A stretch of DNA of 64,000 nucleotides from positions 62,001 through 126,000 of the forward strand of contig NZ_FCOU01000003.1 of assembly GCF_900046475.1 (NCBI RefSeq), given 5' to 3'. Of this stretch, positions 49,882 to 62,914 are shown piece by piece. The stretch comes from Collinsella ihumii (GTDB taxonomy: Bacteria; Actinomycetota; Coriobacteriia; Coriobacteriales; Coriobacteriaceae). The position numbers and the translations under genes are program-made. The stretch's first letter is position 1. Every line of letters starts with the position of its first letter. The notes below the pieces were generated by a model that searched no databases, was not told the DNA's origin, and saw only the letters and a list, made by a program, of their open reading frames with translations.

Positions 49882-49891
49882 TGCAAGTTCT

Positions 49892-49934
49892 TGGTCGCGG
49901 GGGCAGGATTTGAACCTACGACCTCCGGGTTATG
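49892..49934 (-). other. att site: 3' fragment of an initiator tRNA-Met gene
   Basis: The minus strand gives 43 bases of tRNA 3' half starting at anticodon CAT: anticodon-stem CCCGGAGG, T-arm GTAGGTTCAAATCCTGC, acceptor CCCCGCG, then ACCA. The CGCGGGG-type acceptor and CAT anticodon identify initiator tRNA-Met. The 5' half is missing and replaced by element DNA, so this is the duplicated end (attL or attR) left by integration; the intact tRNA should stand at the other end of the element. Confidence 0.8.
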
Positions 49935-49950
49935 ATGAGCTTAAAAAATA

Positions 49951-50100
49951 TCACCTGATAAAGCACCCTGTCACAGTATTTCACCTGATAAATCGCAGTT
50001 TCGCTTTTCACGGTATTTAACCCCATTTCACCCTGTTTCACCGCCTGATGTACATACAATCGTACATACAACTTTGCGAGACTTTCACGGTATTTAACCC
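49951..50100. promoter_or_regulatory. Integrase arm-type and core-adjacent repeats
   Basis: TCACCTGATAAA occurs at 49951-49962 and 49981-49992. TTTCACGGTATTTAACCC occurs at 50006-50023 and again at 50083-50100, with TCACAGTATTT at 49971. CTGATGTACATACAAT occurs at 50045-50060 and again upstream of int at 51392-51407. Repeats clustered between att and a tyrosine integrase gene are what arm-binding sites look like. Confidence 0.65.
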
Positions 50101-51374
50101 TGTTCCACTTGCTCGCGGAGCGCCGTCAGGTCGGTGAAGTCGGTGTAGCGGGACCGGTTCATCTCGGGCGAGTGGCCGAAGTAGGCAGCGCGGCGCTCGA
50201 CCGGCACGTGCTTGTCAGCCCACTCGGAGTTGAGCGTTGTGCGCCACACGTGCGTGCCCACCTCGCGCAGAAGCGGGATGTCGAGCTCGTCTGCGAGCTC
50301 GTCGTAGAACGCGCGGACGGCCTTCTGGCAGTTCCCGCGTTCCCACACCTTGCCGGTCACGGGCGTGGGGAACAGCGGGGTGTCGGGCTCCTTCGGGAGC
50401 CTCCGCAGGCGGCGGCGCAGGCGCTTGACCACGCGCTCGTCGAAGACGGGCACCTCGCGGCCACGCTTGGTCTTCGACGCCTCGGGCAGCACCTCGAGAA
50501 TGAACATGCCGTCGCGCGTGTAGACGTTCTCGCGCTTGAGCAGGCGGCACTCGCCGACGCGAAGGCCGCAGGTGGCCTGCGTGAGCGTCATGTCAATCAG
50601 GTTGAGCCGTTTCGCGGTCATCTGCTCGGCGGACCAGCGCTTTCGCGCGGGTGCTGTCGGATTCATTTTGAGCAGGTGGTTGACCACGCGGCGGCGCTCT
50701 TCCGCGCTCAAGGCCTGCCCGCCCTCGGGCTTGTCCTCGCCGCGGTGCGGCTTGACCATCTCGTCGGGCACCGTGACCTCGAGCGTGAGCGGGCGAAGCG
50801 GGTTCGACGCGATGACCTGCCGGTTGCGCGCGACCTCCATGACGTAGCGGCTCACGATCTTGGCGGCTTGCTTGGCTGACGGGTTGCCGTGATTCACGGC
50901 GATATCCTTAAATACGTTGCTGAGCGTCGCCGGCACGATGGCATCCTTGATGAGCATGCCTTGCGTGCGCTCATGGAAGAGAGTGAGGCAGCGCAGGTAG
51001 CGCGCCTGCGTCCTCGGCCTGAGCGGCGAGGCGTACTCGTTGGCCTTGACGCTCGCGATGCAGACCTTATCGACGAACTCGCCCATGTCGTTGTACATGT
51101 TCCAGTTGCCGCTGCCCGGCAGAAGGTGTAGGTCGCGCAGCTTCCGCGCGTGCGCCCGCGCCTGCTGCGTGCACGCGCGGGTGTCGTTCCCGACCGTGCG
51201 GGTGCAGTGCTTCGATACGGTGCCGTCGAGGTTGATGTACCATTGCATTTCACAAAAGGTCTTCTTGTGCGTGACCTTGTGACCATTGACGGTCTTGGTT
51301 TTCTCCTTGGTGTATTTTCTCGGCTTCGATTCGGCGATGTTGTCTTCGCCGATTTCCAAACGTCGACGTGACAT
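50094..51374 (-). CDS. int: Tyrosine integrase
   Basis: This 426-residue recombinase has an N-terminal arm-binding part (WYINLDGTVSKHCTRTVG), a SAM-like core-binding domain and the catalytic domain. Visible catalytic residues are Arg in TCGLRVGECRLLK, His and Arg in GTHVWRTTLNSEWADKHV, His in YFGHSPEMNRSRYTDF and the nucleophile Tyr in the same segment. Starting at 51374 behind AAGGAG, it points toward the att site. It would integrate and excise the element at the tRNA-fMet gene. It looks intact, so excision could still occur if a partner att remains. Confidence 0.93.
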   Translation of the reverse strand: MSRRRLEIGEDNIAESKPRKYTKEKTKTVNGHKVTHKKTFCEMQWYINLDGTVSKHCTRTVGNDTRACTQQARAHARKLRDLHLLPGSGNWNMYNDMGEFVDKVCIASVKANEYASPLRPRTQARYLRCLTLFHERTQGMLIKDAIVPATLSNVFKDIAVNHGNPSAKQAAKIVSRYVMEVARNRQVIASNPLRPLTLEVTVPDEMVKPHRGEDKPEGGQALSAEERRRVVNHLLKMNPTAPARKRWSAEQMTAKRLNLIDMTLTQATCGLRVGECRLLKRENVYTRDGMFILEVLPEASKTKRGREVPVFDERVVKRLRRRLRRLPKEPDTPLFPTPVTGKVWERGNCQKAVRAFYDELADELDIPLLREVGTHVWRTTLNSEWADKHVPVERRAAYFGHSPEMNRSRYTDFTDLTALREQVEQG

Positions 51375-51424
51375 AGATGCTCCTTAGAGGTCTGATGTAC
51401 ATACAATTCTAGCGCAAAATGCGA

Positions 51425-51635: not shown

Positions 51636-51682
51636 AAATGTCGAGCTGCCGAAACCGACCCTAGAAGGGGGTGTGGTTTCGC

Positions 51683-51928
51683 ATGTCGACTCCATCGCTT
51701 GTAACAAAGGAAGGTAAGGCGTTCATCGTCAGCATTGACGATCTCGACGCCCTCGCCGTCGACGAGCACCGCGCCGCCGAGATGCTGTCGCTCTCGGTCG
51801 GCACGCTGCGCAATTGGCGCTGCCGTCGCTCGAAGAACGGCCCGAAGTGGGCGCGTCTCGGCGGCCGTGTCGTGTATCCCGTTGAGTGGCTCAAAGAGTG
51901 GTTGAACAGCTGCATTGTGCAGGGTTAA
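51683..51928 (+). CDS. Small helix-turn-helix protein, excisionase-like
   Basis: This 81-residue protein contains a MerR/excisionase-type helix-turn-helix (VDEHRAAEMLSLSVGTLRNWRCRRSKNGPKWARLGGRVVYPVEWLKEWL). It is the kind found in recombination directionality factors and in plasmid replication regulators. It lies between the leader and the primase-helicase gene, transcribed away from int. ATG 51683 follows AAGGGGG at a long spacing. It may act as excisionase or as a regulator of the downstream genes. Confidence 0.75.
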   Translation: MSTPSLVTKEGKAFIVSIDDLDALAVDEHRAAEMLSLSVGTLRNWRCRRSKNGPKWARLGGRVVYPVEWLKEWLNSCIVQG

Positions 51929-51946
51929 TCGAGGGCGGTGCTTCCT

Positions 51947-54900
51947 ATGAATAAAACGGAAGAAGTCCGCCCCACGCCTGCCAGCGTATCCGGGACGGAC
52001 TCCAACACCAAACCTAGTTGTGATATTACTACAACTAATGATTTGGACATACATATAAGTAAAACTAATAGTGACGAACACGCAGCGCACGCGTCTGCCG
52101 ACGCGACCGATGTGGTCGACGACGCCCCCGAGTCCGTGGCAGCGGACGACGAGGCGGTAGACCTCAAGGCTCAGTCCGCGTCGGAGGACGACGGGCCGGA
52201 CGCTGACGGCTATTACCGCGTGAACCGCTATATCCGCGCGCGCCAGCCCAAGATTATGTCGAAGTCGCTATTCCAGATCAGCGTTTCACAGTTCGTGATT
52301 GACGACATCGTCGCTAAAACCACGAACATGCAGGTCAATCTTCCACCGCTGCCAGAGGACCTCAAGGACGAGGACGAGATGGAGCGCTGGAACGACGAGT
52401 ACGCGGCGTATCAGCGGCAGATCATGCCGCCGGCGTTCGCGTGCGAGCAGCTTGTCCCCGAGCTCCGCCGCTACTGCGAGAATTGGGCCGACGGCCGCTT
52501 CCCGGGCGTGAGAGAGTCCATGGCTGTTATCGAAGCGGTGCTCAAGCGCGAGACGAGAGTCTACGACCCGAAGCAGAAGAAGAACCCGTGGGTCAAGGTG
52601 CCTTCGGGCATGATTCCCTTGTACCAGCGCGACTACGATAAACGCGTCAATCCGGGCCACTTCCCCATGCCTTATATCGTCGCCCAGCTCCTCGAGTGGA
52701 AGGGGCAGTCGTTCGGCTCGCGCTATATCTACGGTGTGGACGGCGAGCGCGGCGAGGGCATGCTCATGCAGCGTGACTCCTCGAGCAAGGGCCCCTACCG
52801 CATCATCGAGGGCCCGCTGGGCCCGAAAGAGGCGAGCCCCGAGATCATGCAGATGGTGCAGCCGTTTTTGCCGGGGTGCACGCACGAGACGGCGATCGCG
52901 GTCTACCAGCAGCTCGTGCAGCTCGTCCCGCGCGTGCCCGTCAAGCGCGAAGACCCGCGCCTCGTGGCGCTGGGCAGCGGCTGGATGATTGATCCTATTA
53001 CCAAGCGCGGCCGCCGCATGACCGATGACGACGTCATCAACGGCTGCCTCGCCGGCCTCACGTTCGGCTGCAACGAGGACGGCACCATCGAGCGCGTGCC
53101 CTACCCTTACATCTGCGAGGACGGCACCGTCGTCTACGACGACCCGACCTTGGCCGAGGAGCACGGCGGCGTGGCGTTCGACCCGCTTTCGTGGCTCGAG
53201 AAAATCATGCCCGACCCGCTCGGGCGTGGGACATGGTGGGGCATCATTCAGGCGTCGGCGACCCCCGGGGTTGACCGCGGGAAGGCGGTGTTCCTAATCG
53301 GAAAACCCCGCGCCGGCAAGGGTTCCACGCTGCTAGTCGTCCGTGAGGCGTACGGCGGCGACAACGCTCGTCGCGGCGTCATCGCAGGCGTTTCCCTCGA
53401 CCAGATGGGCAAGCCGGAGTACGTCACCATGACGCGCGGCGCGTCGGTGCTGCTGAGCGACGAATCGAACCCCTCGGGCTACGTCAGTGATTCCGGCTAC
53501 CTCAAGGCGTGGATTACCAACGATATTATCGTGTCGCGTGACCTGTATAAAAGCGCCATCATGTGGCGCAATCATGCCTTTGGCATCTGGTGTCTCAATA
53601 GTGAAGTCGGTTTCAACGACAAGACCGAGGCGATGTTCACGCGCACCCTCATGCTCGCATTTAACGAGAGCTGGGCGGGTCGCGAGGATCGACGCATGCG
53701 CGACTGGGTACAGCATCCGGCGGTCGTGAACTGGATTTACTATCACGCCATCGTCGAGATGGACTTCATCGGCGAGCTCAAGGAGAACGCCTACACGCTC
53801 GCCGCGAAGCAGAGGTACCAGTTCGCGACCGACCCGCTGCGCCAGTTCGTCGAGGAGGAGCTGCCGAAGCTCGGCAAGAGGACGCCGCTCGAGCAGGTAT
53901 ACGACATGTACAAGTGCTGGGCTCAGCACAACAACCCGACGGGCAAGCCTGTCGGCAAGGCCAAGTTCTGCGACAGTCTCGAGGAGATCGTCGAGAAGGG
54001 CGACAAGTTCTACGTGCCCCGCGATTCCGCAGGTAAACGTGCGGCCTACGACATCCGCAAGAACTGTAACCCGGACGAGTCGGCGCAGTACCTCGAGGAC
54101 GCGACGCTGTACTGCACGCGACGTGAGAGCGGCGAGTGGACGCCCGCGAAGCTCCATGCATGGTGCCGTCGCTCGACGCTCCCTGACAGCCGCAAGCGCG
54201 GGTGGCTCTTCCGCGTGGACGACGGTCCCGACGGCGGTGACAACGGCTTCGATGATACGCCCGAGACCACGCCCGACGACACGTCTACGTGCACGTTCGA
54301 GGAGGCGAAGCCGCTGTTGGATGCCGTCGAGGCCTCCGGGGCGTCCATCGTCGCCGACGTGGGCGGCGAGCTCGACCCCATCGAGCCCTATTGCGCGCCT
54401 GCGACCGCGGACGAGTGGGTCGCGGCTGGTCGCGTGAGCGCGCTGCTGAAAAGCGAGGGCCTGTTCCCGATCGGCGACTACACCCCCGTCGGCACGGGCC
54501 GCAACGTGCCGAATAATCACGCGGGCCGTGAGCTGATGCTGCACGTGCCCGGCATCGGCCCGTGCGTCCTCACGCCGGACTACCCCGATCGCGCCCGGAG
54601 CGAGCTGCTGAGCCGGATGCAGAGGGTCACGACCGACGATATTCTCCGCATCAGCGAGGACGACACGAGCAACGAAACCCCAGCTCAGACGCCTGACCGG
54701 CTGTCAGCGCCCGCTGACGGCGAGGAGAGGGCCCCCGCGTCCACCGGTGAGCCCGCCCCTGCGAACGAGCCGCCAGCAGGCTCTGAGGCGGCCGCGTCGC
54801 CCGACACGCAGCCGGCAGCACCGCTGAAGAAGCCGTCAGCGCGTGCTCAGGCCCGTAAGCCGGCGCGTGGGCCGCGTCCTACCGAGTCCGGCGGGTTCAC

Positions 54901-54973
54901 GTGGGCTCCTTGGCCGCCGTCACCGCCCGCCGAGCCGGCACCAGGCCCAGACCCCGCCCCGAGCGCGCCCTAG
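51947..54973 (+). CDS. Primase-helicase-like replication protein (DUF5906/D5-type)
   Basis: This protein of about 1008 residues has a low-complexity acidic N-terminus (1-90) and a middle region. An SF3-like helicase domain follows, with Walker A IGKPRAGKGSTLL (near 451) and Walker B SVLLSDESN (near 501). Its next segments (SGYLKAWITNDIIVSRDLYKSAIMWRNHAFGIWCLN) are typical of phage/plasmid DUF5906 replication helicases. A C-terminal 200-residue Ala/Pro/Glu-rich tail is probably disordered. It likely unwinds or primes the element's origin. No separate origin was identified. The ATG at 51947 has a weak ribosome-binding site; GTG 51938 is an alternative. Confidence 0.8.
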   Translation: MNKTEEVRPTPASVSGTDSNTKPSCDITTTNDLDIHISKTNSDEHAAHASADATDVVDDAPESVAADDEAVDLKAQSASEDDGPDADGYYRVNRYIRARQPKIMSKSLFQISVSQFVIDDIVAKTTNMQVNLPPLPEDLKDEDEMERWNDEYAAYQRQIMPPAFACEQLVPELRRYCENWADGRFPGVRESMAVIEAVLKRETRVYDPKQKKNPWVKVPSGMIPLYQRDYDKRVNPGHFPMPYIVAQLLEWKGQSFGSRYIYGVDGERGEGMLMQRDSSSKGPYRIIEGPLGPKEASPEIMQMVQPFLPGCTHETAIAVYQQLVQLVPRVPVKREDPRLVALGSGWMIDPITKRGRRMTDDDVINGCLAGLTFGCNEDGTIERVPYPYICEDGTVVYDDPTLAEEHGGVAFDPLSWLEKIMPDPLGRGTWWGIIQASATPGVDRGKAVFLIGKPRAGKGSTLLVVREAYGGDNARRGVIAGVSLDQMGKPEYVTMTRGASVLLSDESNPSGYVSDSGYLKAWITNDIIVSRDLYKSAIMWRNHAFGIWCLNSEVGFNDKTEAMFTRTLMLAFNESWAGREDRRMRDWVQHPAVVNWIYYHAIVEMDFIGELKENAYTLAAKQRYQFATDPLRQFVEEELPKLGKRTPLEQVYDMYKCWAQHNNPTGKPVGKAKFCDSLEEIVEKGDKFYVPRDSAGKRAAYDIRKNCNPDESAQYLEDATLYCTRRESGEWTPAKLHAWCRRSTLPDSRKRGWLFRVDDGPDGGDNGFDDTPETTPDDTSTCTFEEAKPLLDAVEASGASIVADVGGELDPIEPYCAPATADEWVAAGRVSALLKSEGLFPIGDYTPVGTGRNVPNNHAGRELMLHVPGIGPCVLTPDYPDRARSELLSRMQRVTTDDILRISEDDTSNETPAQTPDRLSAPADGEERAPASTGEPAPANEPPAGSEAAASPDTQPAAPLKKPSARAQARKPARGPRPTESGGFTWAPWPPSPPAEPAPGPDPAPSAP

Positions 54974-55659: not shown

Positions 55660-56046
55660 ATGAGCGATCAGATGACCGAGAGCACCGAGCAGCGGGCCGC
55701 GATGCCTGCTGCCGATGTGCGCGAGGGCGCGGCGGACGTGACCGCGAACGAGGCGGCCGTGAGTGCCGACGAGGTCACGGACAAGTCCGCTGCGGACGGT
55801 GAGGGCGGCGTCGAGAAGACGCGGCTCGAAGCGGCCGAGGAGAGCGTCGCGAAGCTCGAGCAGAGCTTCAAGGATGCCGAGGCGCGGATTGCGAAGGAGA
55901 CGGCGGATCATCGCCGTCGCATGAGGAACCTGCGCGGCAACCGCGACGCTCTCGGGCAGGCGCTCGAAGCCGCGCGCGTGCGTGCGGAGAACGAGCGCCT
56001 GCGCTCCGAGCTCGAGCGCATCCGTCGCGCGGGCTCGGGCGCGTAA
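55660..56046 (+). CDS. Coiled-coil hypothetical protein of the mobile element
   Basis: This 128-residue acidic protein has an Ala/Glu-rich first half and a C-terminal coiled coil with basic patches (AEESVAKLEQSFKDAEARIAKETADHRRRMRNLRGNRDALGQALEAARVRAENERLRSELERIRR). This resembles small accessory proteins of mobilization modules, but no family is recognised. A good site (AAGGAGTGAGTG) precedes the ATG. It is the last gene before the candidate oriT region. Confidence 0.7.
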   Translation: MSDQMTESTEQRAAMPAADVREGAADVTANEAAVSADEVTDKSAADGEGGVEKTRLEAAEESVAKLEQSFKDAEARIAKETADHRRRMRNLRGNRDALGQALEAARVRAENERLRSELERIRRAGSGA

Positions 56047-56614
56047 GCGCCGGCATGCGGGCATCTGTCCCGCACGCGGCGCGCACGCGCAGCGCGGCGA
56101 GCGAGCACGGCAGTCCCCCGTGAGTGGGGCGTGAGTGCGAGCGAGACCGCGCATGTGTCGCCGCGCCGTCGACGTTGCGAGCACATCGGTGCGAGTGACG
56201 AGACGGGCGCGGCGACACGGAGCCGCGAGCACATCGGTGCGAGCGGCTTTTGGGACGGCGTGTTATCGCCGGCCGAGGGGGTGCCCCTGCGGCGGGGAGC
56301 GCAGCTTCCCGAGAGCAGGCCCGTCGGACTTCTGGAGCGAGCCATCAGGCGAGCAGAGGAAGTCCTACGGGCGCTGACCTTAGGACTTTGGGTCGGATGT
56401 TTCCGACCAGAGTCCTAGCGCCTTTTGGCGCACGCACGCGAGCCGATGCTCGTGGGCGCTTTTCCTTCTGCGGGCTGATGCCCGCGAGAGCACGGGGAGC
56501 TCCGCGAGCCGTGCGTCGCATCCCACGCGTGCCCATGCACGCGAAGCTCACACCATCACGGGCCGATGCCCGCATGTATCTGTTCCACGTCCATTGACGA
56601 GAGGAGTGATTCGA
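56047..56614. other. Non-coding region upstream of the relaxase, candidate oriT
   Basis: These 568 bases hold no supported gene. GCGAGCACATCGGTGCGAG occurs twice, at 56177-56195 and 56225-56243. AGTCCTA (56361-56367), TAGGACT (56381-56387) and AGTCCTA (56411-56417) can form two mutually exclusive hairpins; the second contains TTTGGGTCGGA/TCCGACC. GCGCC-TTTT-GGCGC (56418-56431) follows. A repeat-rich, hairpin-forming segment just before a MobV-like gene is the usual position of an oriT. Confidence 0.5.
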
Positions 56615-58864
56615 ATGCCATCGTTCGGCTGCGGCGTGTCCGTCATGACGATGAACCAGACGGGCGCGTCGTCGATGAACACCATCGCCGCGACCAAGGC
56701 CTGCGCCGAGTTCGGCGAGGAGCGCGCCTCACTCACGGCGAACCTCGACCGCTCGCGCTCGGCCGGCAACGAGTACCACTTCCCCGATGGCTGCGGCAAC
56801 TCCGGTGCCGCGCTCGGGAACTGGTTCCTCGAGCAATTCGAGGATTACGCCAAGGGTTACAAGGAGGAGCACGGCCGCCGCCCGCCCGTCTCGACCGCGC
56901 TCGGCGTGACGACGGTCGTCACGCCCGACGAGGAGGCGGTCGCGCAATGGGACGAGCGGCTGCGGAGCAAGTTCGTGCGCGATGCCGTCGAGGTCCTGGA
57001 GCTGTGGTATGGTCGGCCGCTCGACGGATGGGCGAAGCACGTCGACGAGGGCGCGATCGAGGAGCGCGGGCTCACGCGCTCAGACCCGCTCGGCGACGAG
57101 GGCCTGCACATCCACGGCGCGGGGCGTCTGGTCGACAAGCTGCCGGACGACGACGCACTCGTGAGGTACCTCGGCGCGAAGGGCGCGAAGAACCACAGCG
57201 ACCGCTATCGCGGGAAGAACGACGGGTGCATGTACCGCACCGGCACCATCCTCAACAAGGGCAAGCTGCATCTGCTCCATCAGATGTTCGCGATCGAGAT
57301 GGCAGAGCGCGGTTGGCGCGAGCCGGTCGACGAGAAAGACTTCGAAGCGACCGGCTGGTCGATGAAGCCGCACATCACCGGCGCTGAAAAGCGCGAGCGC
57401 GAGAAGCAGGGCGAGGTGTTCCCCGAGGCCGGCCGTTCCGCGAACAAGTACGCACGTCAGGCGAAGTGGGTGCGCAAGCAGAAAGCTGCGCAGGAGGAAG
57501 CCGAGGACGCGCGCGATGCTGCGCTCACCGAGGAGGCTAACTCGAAGGCTCGCCGCGAGCACCTCAAGAACGACGAACGCGAGGCACGCAAGGCGTACAA
57601 CGAGGTCCAGCGCGAGCTCTCGGATGCGCTCGATGACCTCGAGCAGGCACGCTCCGACCTCGAGACGGTGCAGATCCAGCAGGAGTTCGCCGAGCTCAAG
57701 CTCCGCGAGGCGAACCAGATGAGGTGGGGCAGCGAGTGCCGCGCGGAGCGCGCCGAGGCCTATGTCGACCTCGTCACGAACGGCTACCGGCCGCCTGCGG
57801 GCGTGACGTTCATCCCCCTCGAGGCACTGCCGCCAGAGATCCGCCGCCTGCGCGGCTACATGGACGGCGACTACGACGAGGAGGAGCTGCTCGAGGAGTT
57901 CCTTTACGAGGGCGAGCTGGACACCGACGCGGTCGGCGACCGCCTCGCGCCGCTCGAGGAGGACTACGCTCGCGAGCACGGCGCGGGCGTGGGCTACAGC
58001 ACCGACCGCGGCATCTACCTCGTCGACCTGCCCGAGGACTACGTCTCGGAGGACGGTGAGACGCCCGACGAGATGGATGATGGGACGTACAGGAACGAGT
58101 GCGCGGAGTACACAAACGAGGTCGTTTCAAAGCTGGTTCAGTTCGCCGAGAACGCCGGCATCGACCCGCTGCGGCCGCAGATGCCGCTGCATGAGCGCGA
58201 GAAGGCCGTCGAGGTGAGGGAGCGCGAGCTCGACGAGCGCTCCGAGCGCATCGGCCGCGAGCTCGAATCGGCGAACGCGAGGATCGACGGCGCGAAGCGC
58301 GAGGCGGAGGGCATCAGGTCGGGTGCCGAGAGCGACGCCGCGGATATCCTCGCGGCCGCGAAACGCGATGCGGAGGGCATCCGAGCCGGCGCACGGGCAA
58401 AGGCCTACGCCGAGGCGAAGGAGGAGGCCGGCGGGCACGTCGACCGGTACCTCCGGCGCATCGTCGGCGCGGCCTCGATGATCGCCTCGATGGTGCTGAG
58501 GTACATGCGCCGAGAGCTGGACCTCGGCGAGGGGTTCGACCGCGCCGCCGAGGTCTGCATCGGCACCCTCCAGGAGCTCTCGGAGCAGGACGTGCGCGAC
58601 GCCCGATGGGGTGGAGACCCGCGCAACAGCTATACCAACCGCATCCAGCGCGGCGTCTCGAGGTTCTTCCGAGACGAGCTGGGGAGCCGGCTCGACGATG
58701 CCGCCCGCGAGGACGGGCCGGCCGAGGCCGCTCCCGCGAGCCCCGCTTTTTTTGGTCAAGTCCGTCTTTCTGAAATGATCACGGAAAACTTTCGGGTTTG
58801 GGCACGCAACTTTTTCGGGTTCGGTCACGGGCGCGCCGCTAGCTTCCCGACTTGCCCAGCATGA
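56615..58864 (+). CDS. MobV-family (Mob_Pre-like) relaxase, 3' end disrupted by IS21
   Basis: The 749 codons encode an N-terminal relaxase-like domain (residues 1-250) that can be aligned with Mob_Pre proteins. It shows ANLDRSRSAGNEYH, VTTVVTPDEEAVAQWDERLRSKFVRDAVEVLELWYG, the metal-binding-type GLHIHGAGRLVD (near 165) and KLHLLHQMFAIEMAERGWREPV. A long coiled-coil region and a region with AREAEGIRSGAESDAADIL-type repeats follow. The last about 40 residues (from FFGQVRLSEMITENF) are translated from IS21 end sequence, so the native C-terminus is lost. ATG 56615 has AGGAG eight bases upstream. The relaxase would nick the element at oriT for transfer. Confidence 0.65.
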   Translation: MPSFGCGVSVMTMNQTGASSMNTIAATKACAEFGEERASLTANLDRSRSAGNEYHFPDGCGNSGAALGNWFLEQFEDYAKGYKEEHGRRPPVSTALGVTTVVTPDEEAVAQWDERLRSKFVRDAVEVLELWYGRPLDGWAKHVDEGAIEERGLTRSDPLGDEGLHIHGAGRLVDKLPDDDALVRYLGAKGAKNHSDRYRGKNDGCMYRTGTILNKGKLHLLHQMFAIEMAERGWREPVDEKDFEATGWSMKPHITGAEKREREKQGEVFPEAGRSANKYARQAKWVRKQKAAQEEAEDARDAALTEEANSKARREHLKNDEREARKAYNEVQRELSDALDDLEQARSDLETVQIQQEFAELKLREANQMRWGSECRAERAEAYVDLVTNGYRPPAGVTFIPLEALPPEIRRLRGYMDGDYDEEELLEEFLYEGELDTDAVGDRLAPLEEDYAREHGAGVGYSTDRGIYLVDLPEDYVSEDGETPDEMDDGTYRNECAEYTNEVVSKLVQFAENAGIDPLRPQMPLHEREKAVEVRERELDERSERIGRELESANARIDGAKREAEGIRSGAESDAADILAAAKRDAEGIRAGARAKAYAEAKEEAGGHVDRYLRRIVGAASMIASMVLRYMRRELDLGEGFDRAAEVCIGTLQELSEQDVRDARWGGDPRNSYTNRIQRGVSRFFRDELGSRLDDAAREDGPAEAAPASPAFFGQVRLSEMITENFRVWARNFFGFGHGRAASFPTCPA

Positions 58865-59596
58865 GTGACTCCTCGAGACGGTGGCTTGGGCCGCCGAACT
58901 CGACGAGCCTGCCGTGGTGGACGACGCGGTCCACGATCGCGGCGGCGAGCTTGTCGTCCGCGAAGACCGTGCCCCACCGGCTGAACTCGACGTTCGTGGT
59001 GAACACTATGCTCCTCCTTTCGTAAGAGTCGGATATGACCTGGTAGAGCAGGCGCGCGCCGTCGACGTCGAAGGGGACGTAGCCGAACTCGTCGAGGATC
59101 ACGAGCTCGGCCCTGCCGACGTCCGCCAGCAGCCTGTCGAGCGTCCCCTCGCGCTTCGCCTTGCCGAGCTGCAGCACCAGCGCCGCCGTCTGGAAGAAGC
59201 GCACGGGCACCCCGCGCCGGGTCGCCTCGATGCCGAGGGCCGTCGCCACGTGCGTCTTGCCGCGGCCGGTCGGGCCGTGGAAGACGAGGTCCTCGGCGCG
59301 CTCCACGAAGTCGAGCGAGAGCATCTCACGGCTCGACCCCAGCCCTCGGGAAAGCGCACGTTGGACCAGTCGAACCCCTCCACGGCCTTGGGCACGGGGA
59401 AGCGGGCCTGGCGCAGCAGCCGGGCGCGCTTCGACCGCTCGCGGGACTCGAGCTCGCGCGCGAGCATCCCCGAGCACGCGGCGAGCTGGCCCGGGGTCGC
59501 CGTCTCGAGGAACCACGCTATCGTCGCCTTCGATATGAACAGCGACCTGGCGCGCGAGGAGAACTCCTCGCGCTCGGCGTCCGGGATCCTAGGCAC
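58839..59596 (-). pseudogene. istB: istB, IS21 helper ATPase (frameshifted)
   Basis: The N-terminal half (MPRIPDAEREEFSSRARSLFISKATIAWFLETATPGQ ... GFDWSNVRFPEGWG) and the C-terminal half (REMLSLDFVERAEDLVFHGPTGRGKTHVATALG, Walker A GPTGRGKTH, Walker B LVILDEFGYVPFD) lie in different frames. The break is at a run of four C (59337-59340, minus-strand CTGGGGTCG); one lost G would explain it. The N-terminal start overlaps the istA end by 8 bases, as in other IS21 elements. Confidence 0.8.
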
Positions 59597-61092
59597 TGGC
59601 GGCGCCCCCCTCCAGCAGCTCGAAGGCCCGGTCGTACCCCGCGAGGTCGACCGGCTCGTCGTACTCGACGAGCGCGTCGCCGGCGGCCGCCCTAGCGGCG
59701 GCGAGCTCCAGGGTGGCGGCGTCGACGCCGCCCGTGGCCCCGAGCGACCTCAGCGCGCCCTCCACGGTCGCCGCCCAGCCCCGCCTGGCGCTCACGTCGC
59801 GCAGCGCCCTGAGGTCGGCTCCGAGGTCGGCGGGCGACTCCGAGTCGAGGAACGCCACGAGCTGCTCGGGCAGGGACCCCCGCACGACGCTGTCGCGCCA
59901 GCCGCCGGGGCGCACGCAGAGCAGCCTCAGCTGCAGCATTGGGTCGGCGGAGTCCGTCGGCGCGTCGCCCCACTCGCGCGGGTACTCGGCGACGACCTCG
60001 CCTCCGGCGCCGACGACCGTGACGTCGAAGGCGCCCATCGCGACGGCGACCTCGCGGGAGGCGTTGACGGGCCCCGCCGAGTAGCGGTGCTCGCCGCCCG
60101 CCCTGAACGAGCCCTGCTTGTCGCACCTCCTGGTGAGCCACGTCACGCACGCGAACGGAGCCGCGGGCAGCGGCGAGAGCGCGGCGCGGTCGTCCCCGAA
60201 GAGCTCGGACTCGCTCGCGCCCTTGCGGTAGTGCGGCTTGCCGTCCGAGAGCGCCAGGCACGTCCCGAGCAGCCGCTCGTTGTAGGCCTTCACGTCCCAG
60301 ACCTGCGGGACCGGGACGAAGAGGTTGCGCCTGAGCGTCCCGACCTTGTTCTCCACGGAGCCCTTCTCGTTCCCCGAGTAGGGGTTGGTGAAGCTGTAGT
60401 CGAGCCCGTAGTGCGCGGCGAACCGGCGGAAGAGCGCCGAGGTCCTCATCTCGGCGCCGACCCTGCGGCCGACCTCGGTGGCGTTGTCGAACACGGCCCG
60501 CAGCGGCACGCCCCCGAGGAACTCGAAGACGTCGCGGAGCCCCTGGCAGACGCACTCCGCGGTCTCGCCCCAGAAGACCTGCGCGAGCCCGACGTTTGAG
60601 TGCGGGAACGTGACCACGAGGAAGTGGCCGCGGGTGACGACGCCTCGCACGCGGAAGTCGGCCTGCCCGAAGTCGACCTGGCACTCGCCCGGGAGCCAGT
60701 CGAGCAGCAGGAACCCCTGCGCCTCGCGGGCGTCGAGCTCGGCGGCGAGCTCCTCGCGATCGCCTCCGCACGTACCTCCTGACGGTCGAGTACGAGCCCT
60801 CGAAGCCCTTCTCCGCGACGAGCCGGTCGAAGACCCTCTTCGCGGTGTGGCGCTGCTTGTACCAGCAGCGCCTGTCCTCGAGCAGCCACGAATCGACCAG
60901 CGCCGCGAAGGGCTCGAGCAGGGGCGACTCGGGCGCCCTGCCGACCGCCGGCGGCCTCTCGGAGAGGTCGGTCTCCCTCAGGTACTTCCTCACCGTGGGC
61001 TCGGAGACCCCGGTTTCCCGGGCGATCGAGGCGACGCTCGCCCCGCCCCTCCCGAGCCTTCTGATATCGTCGATCTTGTCCACGCCGATCAT
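59589..61092 (-). pseudogene. istA: istA, IS21 transposase (frameshifted)
   Basis: The N-terminal part (MIGVDKIDDIRRLGRGGASVASIARETGVSEPTVRKYLRETDL ... YSTVRRYVRR) and the rest (GDREELAAELDAREAQGFLLLDWLPGECQVDFGQADFRVRGVVTRGHFLVVTFPHSNVG ... GVPLRAVFDNAT ... NPYSGNEKGSVENKVG, the DDE core) are in different frames. The shift lies near 60765. The catalytic residues visible in the second part are intact, so decay is recent. Confidence 0.8.
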
Positions 61093-61230
61093 TTCCTTCC
61101 CGGCCTCCCATCGTCGCAACCGTAGCAGCGACAACGTTAGGCCCCGTTGGGGATGGTCGGCGTGCCCATGCCCAAACCCGAAAGTTTTTCGTGACCATTC
61201 CCGAAAGCTCCGGGTGATCAAATCCGCAAG

Positions 61231-62532
61231 TCAGACGTTATCAAACACAAGCGGCCCGTCACCCCTCTCGGCGCGGGCGCGCTCGATGCACCCCGGCGTC
61301 AGGTCGAGCTCCGAGGGGTCCAGCACCTCGACGCCGAGCCCGTCGAGGAGCGCCCGGGCGGCGTCCTCGTAGTCGTCGCCACCGGCCTCGGCGACGGCCA
61401 TCATGAAGGCGAGCGAGCCCCTCGGCTCGGAGTTCACGTGGCTCATCAGCAGGGCGCAGTCGGCCGGCGCCAGCCGGTCGAAGGATATCCCGCGGCCCTT
61501 CGGCAGCAGCTTCCTGATCTCGACGTGGTTGCGCTCGCAGGAGCCCTTCTGGTCCGAGCGCATCGGGTCGCAGTAGAACAGCCTCGTCTCGCCCGGCCGC
61601 TCGCAGAGCGCGGCGGCGATGCCGGCCTCGTCGGCGAACTCGGAGCCGTTGTCGGTGAGCACGACGGCGAAGACCCGGCGCACGCCGTCCTCCCCGAGCA
61701 GGGCGCGCAGGGCGCCCAGCGCGCGAACGGTCTCGGCCGAGGTCTGGGCGGCCATCGGCAGCGCCAGCTGGAACCTCGTCGCCCTGTTCAGCAGCGTCAG
61801 CACGACGGCGGAGTCGCCGGAGCGCCCCTCGACCGTGTCCATCTCCCAGCGTCCGTCCCGCGCGTCCCGCGGCAGCGCGAGGAACGCGGCGTGCGACCTG
61901 CGGTCGGAGTGGGGCGTCGGCCTGCGCGGGACCTTCCTCCTCCTCGGCTTGTAGCCGACCTTGCGCCGCAGCTCCATGTTGCTCATGCCCCCGTAGCCCT
62001 CGTCGGCCCAGCGGTATATCGTCGACTTCGAGACGCCGAGCGACGGCCTCGTGGCCGCGATCTGCTCCGGCGACAGGCCGCGGGCGAGGTCGGAGCGGAT
62101 GACCTCGAGCTTCATGGCCATGCCCTCCTCGGTCTCGTCCACGCCCCTGCGCGCCCCCCGGAGCTCCTCGTCGGCGAGCGCGTGCGCCCTCGCCGCGCGG
62201 TAGACGGCCTTCGGGGTCCTCGAGCAGCCGCACGCCCTCTTCCTGCACCCGTTGCACACGCCCGGCGACCTCGCGAGCAGGCCGCACAGCCCGTCCGGCC
62301 CCTCCGCGGGGAACCGCTCGCCCTCCATGCCCCTGGGCCTCAGGTACACCCTGTTCCTCTTGACCTCGCGCGGCACCTCGGCGAGCGACTGCTCGATCAT
62401 GCGCGCGATCTCGCGCATGCTCTCGCCCCCGTCCAGGCCGCGCTCGATGCCCCGCCTGTCGTCGAGCGTGAGCCTCGGGTAGGCGCGCCGCGCGGCGAGC
62501 GGGGCGGCCTTCGCCCTCTTCGAGCCCTTCAT
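61231..62532 (-). CDS. IS30-family transposase
   Basis: This 433-residue transposase has an N-terminal helix-turn-helix (YPRLTLDDRRGIERGLDGGESMREIARMIEQSLAEVPREVKRN), a cysteine-rich zinc-binding stretch (CNGCRKRACGCS) and the DDE integrase core. Core segments are DGRWEMDTVEGRSGDSAVVLTLLNRATRF (first Asp), VFAVVLTDNGSEFADEAGI (second Asp) and YCDPMRSDQKGSCERNHVEIRKLLPKG (Glu). The start at 62532 lies behind GGAGGCCGGAAT; the longer frame upstream crosses the palindrome. It appears complete and may be active. Confidence 0.9.
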   Translation of the reverse strand: MKGSKRAKAAPLAARRAYPRLTLDDRRGIERGLDGGESMREIARMIEQSLAEVPREVKRNRVYLRPRGMEGERFPAEGPDGLCGLLARSPGVCNGCRKRACGCSRTPKAVYRAARAHALADEELRGARRGVDETEEGMAMKLEVIRSDLARGLSPEQIAATRPSLGVSKSTIYRWADEGYGGMSNMELRRKVGYKPRRRKVPRRPTPHSDRRSHAAFLALPRDARDGRWEMDTVEGRSGDSAVVLTLLNRATRFQLALPMAAQTSAETVRALGALRALLGEDGVRRVFAVVLTDNGSEFADEAGIAAALCERPGETRLFYCDPMRSDQKGSCERNHVEIRKLLPKGRGISFDRLAPADCALLMSHVNSEPRGSLAFMMAVAEAGGDDYEDAARALLDGLGVEVLDPSELDLTPGCIERARAERGDGPLVFDNV

Positions 62533-62567
62533 ATTCCGGCCTCCTTGCCGGGGCCGCCGACCGGCCC
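61231..62567 (-). mobile_element. IS30-family insertion sequence
   Basis: One full-length transposase gene with short flanks occupies the interval. Its upstream end stops exactly at the 66-bp palindrome (62568), and its downstream end runs into the IS21 right end, so the IS30 left terminus is either lost or within about 30 bases. IS30 elements often insert in or beside palindromes (family knowledge). No terminal repeat was confirmed. Confidence 0.65.
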
Positions 62568-62633
62568 CACGCCCCAAGGATTCCAGAACCCAGCGCAACG
62601 CGTTGCGCTGGGTTCTGGAATCCTTGGGGCGTG
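62568..62633. repeat. 66-bp perfect palindrome
   Basis: The 33-base half CACGCCCCAAGGATTCC...GCAACG (62568-62600) is followed without loop by its exact complement to 62633. Outward on the right it continues TTGCAC, the end sequence of the long hairpin family (GTGCAA...TTGCAC). That suggests an original hairpin element cut at its left foot by the IS30 insertion. Confidence 0.8.
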
Positions 62634-62914
62634 TTGCACTGAGGTTGAAACTCTACGAAAGCGCTTCTATCGATTTTCACATTGCGGAAAACCGCATATG
62701 GAGGCCTCAGTACATCTTTCTGATGATATACTGATTTATTTATGGTTCCCGTTTCAGTCGACTGGCGTGAACGGGATCGAACGACCTTGGAATGGACCGC
62801 CGCCGTACGGCGCAGGATACGCAGCTGGGCTGCCCCGGTGGACGCGGCAGCCCCTGCAGGCCGATCGGATGCGGCACCCGCCGGAACCCGACCCGGTGCC
62901 CGGACGAGACGCCC
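62634..62914. other. Non-coding stretch between IS30/hairpin and the 4Fe-4S gene
   Basis: AT-rich in the first half with TATACT near 62730, GC-rich in the second with a GGCTGCC/GGCAGCC stem near 62830-62855. No gene, tRNA or att sequence was found. Confidence 0.35.

Follow-up and report, generated by a model that had tools for sequence, protein, structure and literature searches.

Between the stop codon of the open reading frame (ORF) at 55660-56046 and the ATG of a relaxase gene at 56615, the stretch of Collinsella ihumii DNA analysed here (64,000 nt, 'the window') has a 568-nt gap, 56047-56614. The question is whether this gap is the origin of transfer (oriT) of the relaxase, and which hairpins would make it one. 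An earlier note had proposed an oriT with mutually exclusive hairpins upstream of a MobV-like relaxase, and on re-reading the sequence we found all the repeats that it named: AGTCCTA at 56361-56367 and again at 56411-56417, TAGGACT at 56381-56387, GCGCC-TTTT-GGCGC at 56418-56431, and the two exact copies of a 19-nt direct repeat (56177-56195 and 56225-56243). We consider these features real and the oriT reading by far the best. The interval very probably holds the oriT of an integrative mobilizable element that is inserted in a tRNA-Met gene, at its 3' end, with a relaxase of predicted MobV fold and a processing similar to that of pMV158. Covariation, linkage to the relaxase and the predicted fold of the enzyme support the proposal, except for the pair of hairpins that it named.

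The perfect 7-bp triple (X/X'/X) is by itself weak evidence, since 216 of 2000 dinucleotide shuffles of the interval contain one. As single-stranded DNA, the whole interval folds at -183.2 kcal/mol, against -144.1 +/- 4.6 kcal/mol for shuffled versions (z -8.5, 0/100 as good), and a 111-nt stretch with the core gives z -6.1 (0/200 shuffles as good). At the level of sequence comparison, it is conservation with covariation, not the repeat triple, that provides the real and main support for the feature. The frequency of chance triples might suggest functionless G+C-rich palindromes, an idea that we give practically no credence, as both stems described below covary and the core is linked to the relaxase. 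The features are listed in Table 1; the row for the core is based on the six-sequence alignment A6, on covariation and on core-pattern matches across 395 genomes.

Table 1. Features of the element, by position in the window (IR, inverted repeat)
Feature	Position	Strand	Remarks
Probable attL, 3' part of tRNA-Met gene	49890..49935	-	Adjoins the integrase end of the element
Tyrosine integrase	50094..51374	-	PF00589
HTH_17 protein, probable excisionase	51671..51928	+	Domain match
P4-type primase/helicase	51938..54973	+	Pox_D5 over cut-off; TIGR01613 below cut-off
Small ORF, possible accessory protein	55660..56046	+	G058 and G059 have it in this place too
19-nt direct repeat, copy 1	56177..56195	+	Contains GCAC-ATCG-GTGC
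19-nt direct repeat, copy 2	56225..56243	+	Identical in G058 and G059
Candidate oriT core	56320..56389	+	Comprises IR1/IR3 hairpin, predicted nick region and right arm of IR2
IR3 left arm	56320..56332	+	CCCGT 56320-56324, 1 unpaired base, X1 = GGACTTC 56326-56332
IR3 right arm	56359..56371	+	X'2 = GAAGTCC 56359-56365, 1 unpaired base, ACGGG 56367-56371
Predicted nick, G/C	56371..56372	+ (coding)	By analogy with pMV158; 3' end of IR3 right arm
X3 = TAGGACTT, IR2 right arm	56381..56388	+	45/48 cells paired, 3 pairs double-changed
Small hairpin GGTCGGA-tgtt-TCCGACC	56391..56408	+	Directly 3' of X3
AGTCCTA, third copy of the earlier note	56411..56417	+	Not conserved
GCGCC-TTTT-GGCGC hairpin	56418..56431	+	GCGCC-CCTT-GGCGC in G058 and G059
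MobV-like relaxase	56615..58750	+	About 711 native residues

Of the traits of an integrative mobilizable element, we observed an integrase, a relaxase predicted to have the MobM fold and a candidate oriT. The small ORF that precedes the gap gave no Pfam match over cut-off. In the related genome G058, the att sequence recurs about 21.5 kb further on as an intact tRNA-Met gene. The right end of the element lies outside the window, and the only other att copy of the window's genome is an intact tRNA-Met on another contig. The relaxase gene is followed by a 3.9-kb stretch of insertion sequences (about 58750-62657), with IS21-type istA/istB and an IS30-like transposase. As a 98% copy of this stretch is found on another contig (L075, 6719-10612), about 2.7 kb from the intact tRNA-Met where the other end of the element would be expected, the element has probably been split, by IS recombination or by assembly. 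Repeats of the TTTCACGGTATTTAACC type, possible arm sites for the integrase, separate the att site from the integrase gene (49969-50108). Positions 49939-50100 are identical in G058, and an exact 16-nt repeat, CTGATGTACATACAAT, flanks the integrase gene (50045-50060 and 51392-51407).

As for the relaxase itself, no Pfam or NCBIfam relaxase model matched it, including PF01076 and NF041497 at their curated cut-offs. Its distant relative L035 gave matches below the cut-offs, with 22.9 bits for PF01076 (cut-off 25.5; E 8.4e-5) and 20.8 for NF041497 (cut-off 100). A PF01076 search of the window's own genome returned no match, which is no proof of absence since the control genomes likewise remained unmatched; in the order, PF01076 matched in 16 of 197 genomes, 14 of them above the cut-off. 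A structure model built from nine sequences (mean pLDDT 68, pTM 0.69, pLDDT below 50 over residues 36-47) superseded a poor one built from three (pLDDT 45). The best fold match of this predicted model in the PDB is MobM of pMV158 (4lvk; Foldseek E 5.8e-5), to which it aligns with Z 14.2 and an rmsd of 3.7 over 186 residues, compared with Z 8.2 for the next family. MobM was also the sole match, a weak one (E 0.16), when the five-sequence profile A4 was run against the PDB with E up to 10. Using hhalign, a profile of nine proteins (the window's and eight relatives) aligned to one of 11 ordinary MobV proteins (14 taken out, L056, L060 and L064 omitted) with a probability of 97.6, the catalytic motifs being aligned with one another; the probability was 59.8 for a profile limited to the five close proteins and 91.2 for one limited to the four distant ones. 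The fold match, the alignment with motifs in register and the sub-cut-off matches of L035 together argue that the protein is MobV-like, in its predicted fold and, less firmly, in sequence. Its tail has been cut by the IS21-type insertion, into which the ORF continues up to 58864, so that the border is approximate; according to the alignment, the last residues only are affected, outside the catalytic domain.

Close relatives were found in G058 and G059 by sequence search, and a second family, f2 (G168, G176 and G169), by profile search. Of 395 genomes of the order, the profile search matched 12, the window's own included: six close matches (E < 1e-80), five weak MobV-like or partial ones and one with an internal stop. 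Searching 140 genomes from the family of G176 and 296 from the class brought no further close relative. G168 is absent from protein alignments A4 and A5 but included in A6 and in the ten-protein motif count given below. Searches of genome contigs with the full relaxase, and of viral contigs with its N-terminus and with profiles A3 and A4, gave no useful matches. There was no match for the oriT DNA in plasmids and phages, for the G156 protein in plasmids or for the L032 protein in phages, and five plasmid matches to the relaxase N-terminus were spurious. L010 and L011 were rejected as relatives since their match is limited to the coiled-coil part; L015 (G011), L026/L037 (G095) and L028/L039 (G097, with an internal stop) were dropped as chance, partial or broken matches, and a tRNA-Gly call inside the relaxase of L016 was taken as false. 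Literature searches found nothing on this relaxase clade, nor nicking or transfer data for it.

The proposal would lose its basis if the region were not conserved upstream of related relaxases. The locus is present in 6 of 395 Coriobacteriales genomes, the window's and five others, and the core is found in the window and in all five close relatives, where it starts 237-411 bp before the relaxase ATG. The core pattern CTAYGGGCRNNNAYCTTAG has seven matches in the 395 genomes of the order and its reversed control one; six of the seven are the sites upstream of this relaxase, and the seventh, inside an unrelated coding gene of G038, was set aside as a chance match. The covariation analysis was performed on six sequences that carry only three arm types and therefore reflect few independent events, with shuffles that ignore relatedness; in this set, the 12-bp stem of IR3 (56320-56332 with 56359-56371) is paired in 72/72 cells and has five pairs changed on both sides. 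None of 500 shuffles was as good on four of five measures, although 223 equalled the stem in further pair types, the remaining measure; sliding the stem gave a worse result in all six versions. In the 8-bp stem of IR2 (56360-56367 with 56381-56388), every one of the three f2 sequences has a single mismatch; one of 500 shuffles was as good in cells paired and in covariation score, and 128 of 500 reached its number of double-changed pairs. X1 serves as left arm of IR1 as well, and 56360-56367 doubles as the left arm of IR2; because of this common middle arm, IR1/IR3 and IR2 are mutually exclusive.

Across the six upstream regions (A6), the arms are exchanged as sets. As X1/X'2/X3, the window has GGACTTC/GAAGTCC/TAGGACTT, while G058 and G059 have GACGTTT/AAACGTC/TAGACGTT and f2 has GGGGTTT/AAACCCC, with TAGGGCTT or TAGGAGTT as X3; the outer stem has the consensus CCCRT/AYGGG over all six. 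The distant relatives G156 and G110 have other arms in a similar X1/X'2/X3 arrangement upstream, with 0/60 mononucleotide shuffles as good in each case. For the other distant relatives, the best-triple search gave 1/60 (G129) and 5/60 (G099) mononucleotide shuffles as good, and it gave 1/60 each for the window, G058 and G168; in G176 a different triple was picked (14/60). By eye, this X1/X'2/X3 layout can also be seen in the DNA upstream of L058, L060 and L064, which are ordinary MobV proteins of Coriobacteriales. The relaxase and its upstream DNA are possibly a mosaic module, judging from the sequences. The N-terminus of the window relaxase is nearer to the f2 proteins (62 and 59%) than to those of G058 and G059 (48%), yet by eye the upstream intergenic DNA of the window is far nearer to that of G058 and G059 than to that of f2.

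These data also bear on the pairings. The earlier note had correctly identified the middle pair, 56361-56367 with 56381-56387, and had taken the third copy at 56411 as the competing arm; the conserved partner is GGACTTC at 56326-56332, an extra copy of the arm that it had overlooked, together with the outer CCCGT/ACGGG stem (56320-56324 with 56367-56371), also a conserved partner. A switch made of exactly the three arms that it proposed (56361-56367, 56381-56387 and, downstream, 56411-56417) is very improbable in our view. In the window, none of the three arms has a mismatch, and in its minimum-energy DNA fold the 56381/56411 pairing does form, around the small hairpin and along with IR3, IR2 being absent. 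However, the window is the one sequence in which 56381-56387 pairs completely with 56411-56417: over the six sequences, 19 of 42 cells are paired, fewer than the shuffled mean, no pair is changed on both sides, and the relatives read AAACCCA or CAGGCGA at the third copy. Among the f2 sequences, the lowest-energy folds contain the upstream hairpin in two cases and an extended IR2 in one. As for the small hairpin, the relatives have a different G+C-rich hairpin at its position; the folding of this region reaches z -5.0 for the segments of both the window and G058 and is weaker in f2, with 4/200 shuffles as good in G176 and 24/200 in G168.

The site had also been described as different from textbook ones. 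On the contrary, three overlapping inverted repeats, IR1 lying within IR3, that give rise to mutually exclusive hairpins are what PMC5863519 describes for oriT of pMV158. As this opposition of IR1/IR3 to IR2 is published, the site is nearer to the textbook than had been thought. The window has the pMV158-type exclusive IR1/IR3 and IR2 upstream of the mob gene, and it shares with pMV158 the predicted fold of the relaxase, the location of oriT upstream of its gene, an IR1 nested in an imperfect, longer IR3 of 12 bp, an IR2 that overlaps the right arm of IR1/IR3, and a direct repeat found in both IR1 (left arm) and IR2 (right arm). This repeat is GGACTT in the window (at 56326 and 56383, X3 thus repeating the core of X1) and GACGTTT in both arms in G058 and G059; in f2, GGGGTTT is matched by GGGCTTT or GGAGTTT, with one mismatch each. 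The real departures from the textbook are the 26-nt loop of the upstream hairpin, compared with 4 nt for IR1 of pMV158, the G+C-rich arms and the enzyme. Besides, the window IR2 has a 13-nt loop, IR3 has a 1x1 mismatch where pMV158 has a 3-nt bulge, and the predicted nick is G/C rather than G/T; in the clade, the distance of the core from the ATG is a further difference. The predicted nick position sits in the IR2 loop, whose GGGC is invariant in 6/6 sequences (A6).

A similar organisation is found in IMESag-rpsI of Streptococcus agalactiae, an integrative mobilizable element with a MobV-type relaxase, MobSag, and an oriT with three partly overlapping inverted repeats, in which no coupling protein or type IV secretion system (T4SS) of the element's own was seen (PMC5090054). 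MobSag differs from the window relaxase in that it keeps all the MOBV1 motifs (HxxR, NYD/EL and HxDExxPHUH), and it belongs to a different phylum (PMC5090054).

Could the hairpins act in RNA rather than in DNA processing, as an attenuator, a terminator or a leader that controls relaxase expression? They are stable and lie between two co-oriented genes. Since oriT of pMV158 also carries the mob promoters (PMC5863519), RNA and oriT roles can coexist. Nevertheless, in GCGCC-TTTT-GGCGC the run of T sits in the loop instead of following the stem, and all Rfam matches between 48000 and 64000 (E up to 1) are at 62567-62634, none in the interval. Stems that exclude each other through a shared arm, a conserved loop and a neighbouring relaxase of MobM fold are specifically the layout of a MobV oriT, and we regard a purely RNA-level role as very improbable. 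The Rfam matches at 62567-62634, miRNA-like and on both strands, coincide with a roughly 66-nt palindrome close to the IS30-like transposase, which is probably an IS end.

It is possible, although we think it unlikely, that the 568-nt interval also functions as a replication or single-strand initiation origin for the P4-type primase, with the oriT as its core only and with the 19-nt repeats and a large inverted repeat as the sites of that origin. This would complement the oriT core, not replace it. The primase is encoded in the same element, the entire interval folds strongly, and the 19-nt repeats and the 13-bp inverted repeat that encloses copy 1 (56155-56167/56206-56218) are located outside the oriT core and kept in G058, where copy 1 is identical; it has four changes in G059. 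By contrast, the three f2 stretches (L031-L033) have no copy of the 19-nt repeat with up to three mismatches. Several short GCGGGC-loop-GCCCGC hairpins, whose loop contains or adjoins an ATG, occur here and there in 56055-56575, and similar ones can be seen by eye in G058 and G059.

Returning to the oriT reading, the enzyme is its most unusual component. The histidine with which MobM cleaves DNA is that of motif I, HxxR. The MOBV1 motifs are HxxR (I), NY(D/E)L (II) and HxDExxPHUH (III) (PMC5090054), and cleavage by MobM is described as proceeding through a histidine (PMC5863519). In place of motif I, the window protein has G34-E-E-R37 (GxxR), whose G34, E36 and R37 are invariant in 9/9 aligned sequences, and its first His and its first Tyr come no earlier than residues 55 and 54, respectively. 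Catalysis is therefore not assured. Instead of NY(D/E)L, all ten proteins have N-x-Y (N52-E53-Y54 in the window). As for motif III, H142-V-D144-E145 is followed by 19 residues and H165-I-H167, a spacing unlike that of HxDExxPHUH; H142, D144, E145, H165 and H167 are invariant in 9/9, the f2 members reading HGH. The long spacer between HxDE and HxH is not special, because ordinary MobV proteins (L054, L057 and L058) have one too; it was also seen in L060. Ordinary PF01076 MobV proteins of Coriobacteriales have colinear catalytic motifs and, for some, this long spacer; unlike the window protein, they match PF01076 and mostly keep HxxR, which precedes motif II in 8 of 11 (L069 is without it, and the set contains only incomplete sequences of L063 and L065). 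MOBL relaxases such as Rel of pLS20 are also missed by the usual domain models and have a 3-His motif (PMC5313138). They are described as closest to MOBP, with Tyr26 as the catalytic residue (PMC5313138). The window protein differs from them by the position of its first Tyr and by its best fold match, MobM; a Tyr is found at position 26 in G058 and G059 only, the other 8 of 10 proteins being without it.

It is tempting to speculate, with somewhat less than even confidence, that the clade is a branch of the MobV fold that has lost the histidine nucleophile of MobM, and in which the invariant Tyr of motif II (Tyr54) forms the covalent bond with DNA, at an oriT that retains the hairpin switch of pMV158. 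If so, His and Tyr chemistries would have been exchanged within one relaxase fold, with the DNA switch unchanged.

In pMV158, the nick is just 3' of the right arm of IR3 and the coding strand is transferred; binding of MobM shifts IR3 to IR1 and melts the nick region (PMC5863519). By analogy, the MobV-fold relaxase would recognise the 12-bp IR3 hairpin, with IR1 within it, its binding would melt the adjacent DNA, and the coding strand would be cut near 56371/56372, directly past the 3' side of the hairpin. After this, the enzyme would remain on the 5' end and lead the strand into the recipient, using a conjugation apparatus provided by another element. The alternative IR2 hairpin, which excludes IR1/IR3, may represent a silent state or serve to re-close the DNA after transfer. 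The copy in the window may still function in this manner today.

The locus thus looks like a pMV158-type oriT layout associated with a relaxase branch without the key histidine of MobM, as far as its sequence tells. Seen comparatively, the compensatory changes speak for selection on both of the alternative stems of a pMV158-type oriT, here outside Bacillota and in G+C-rich DNA, and this covariation supports the switch model that was derived from footprinting on pMV158. Since the Pfam and NCBIfam models that we tried miss this relaxase clade, such elements may be typed as non-mobilizable. Finally, the clade offers a direct test of how MobV enzymes acquired the use of histidine.
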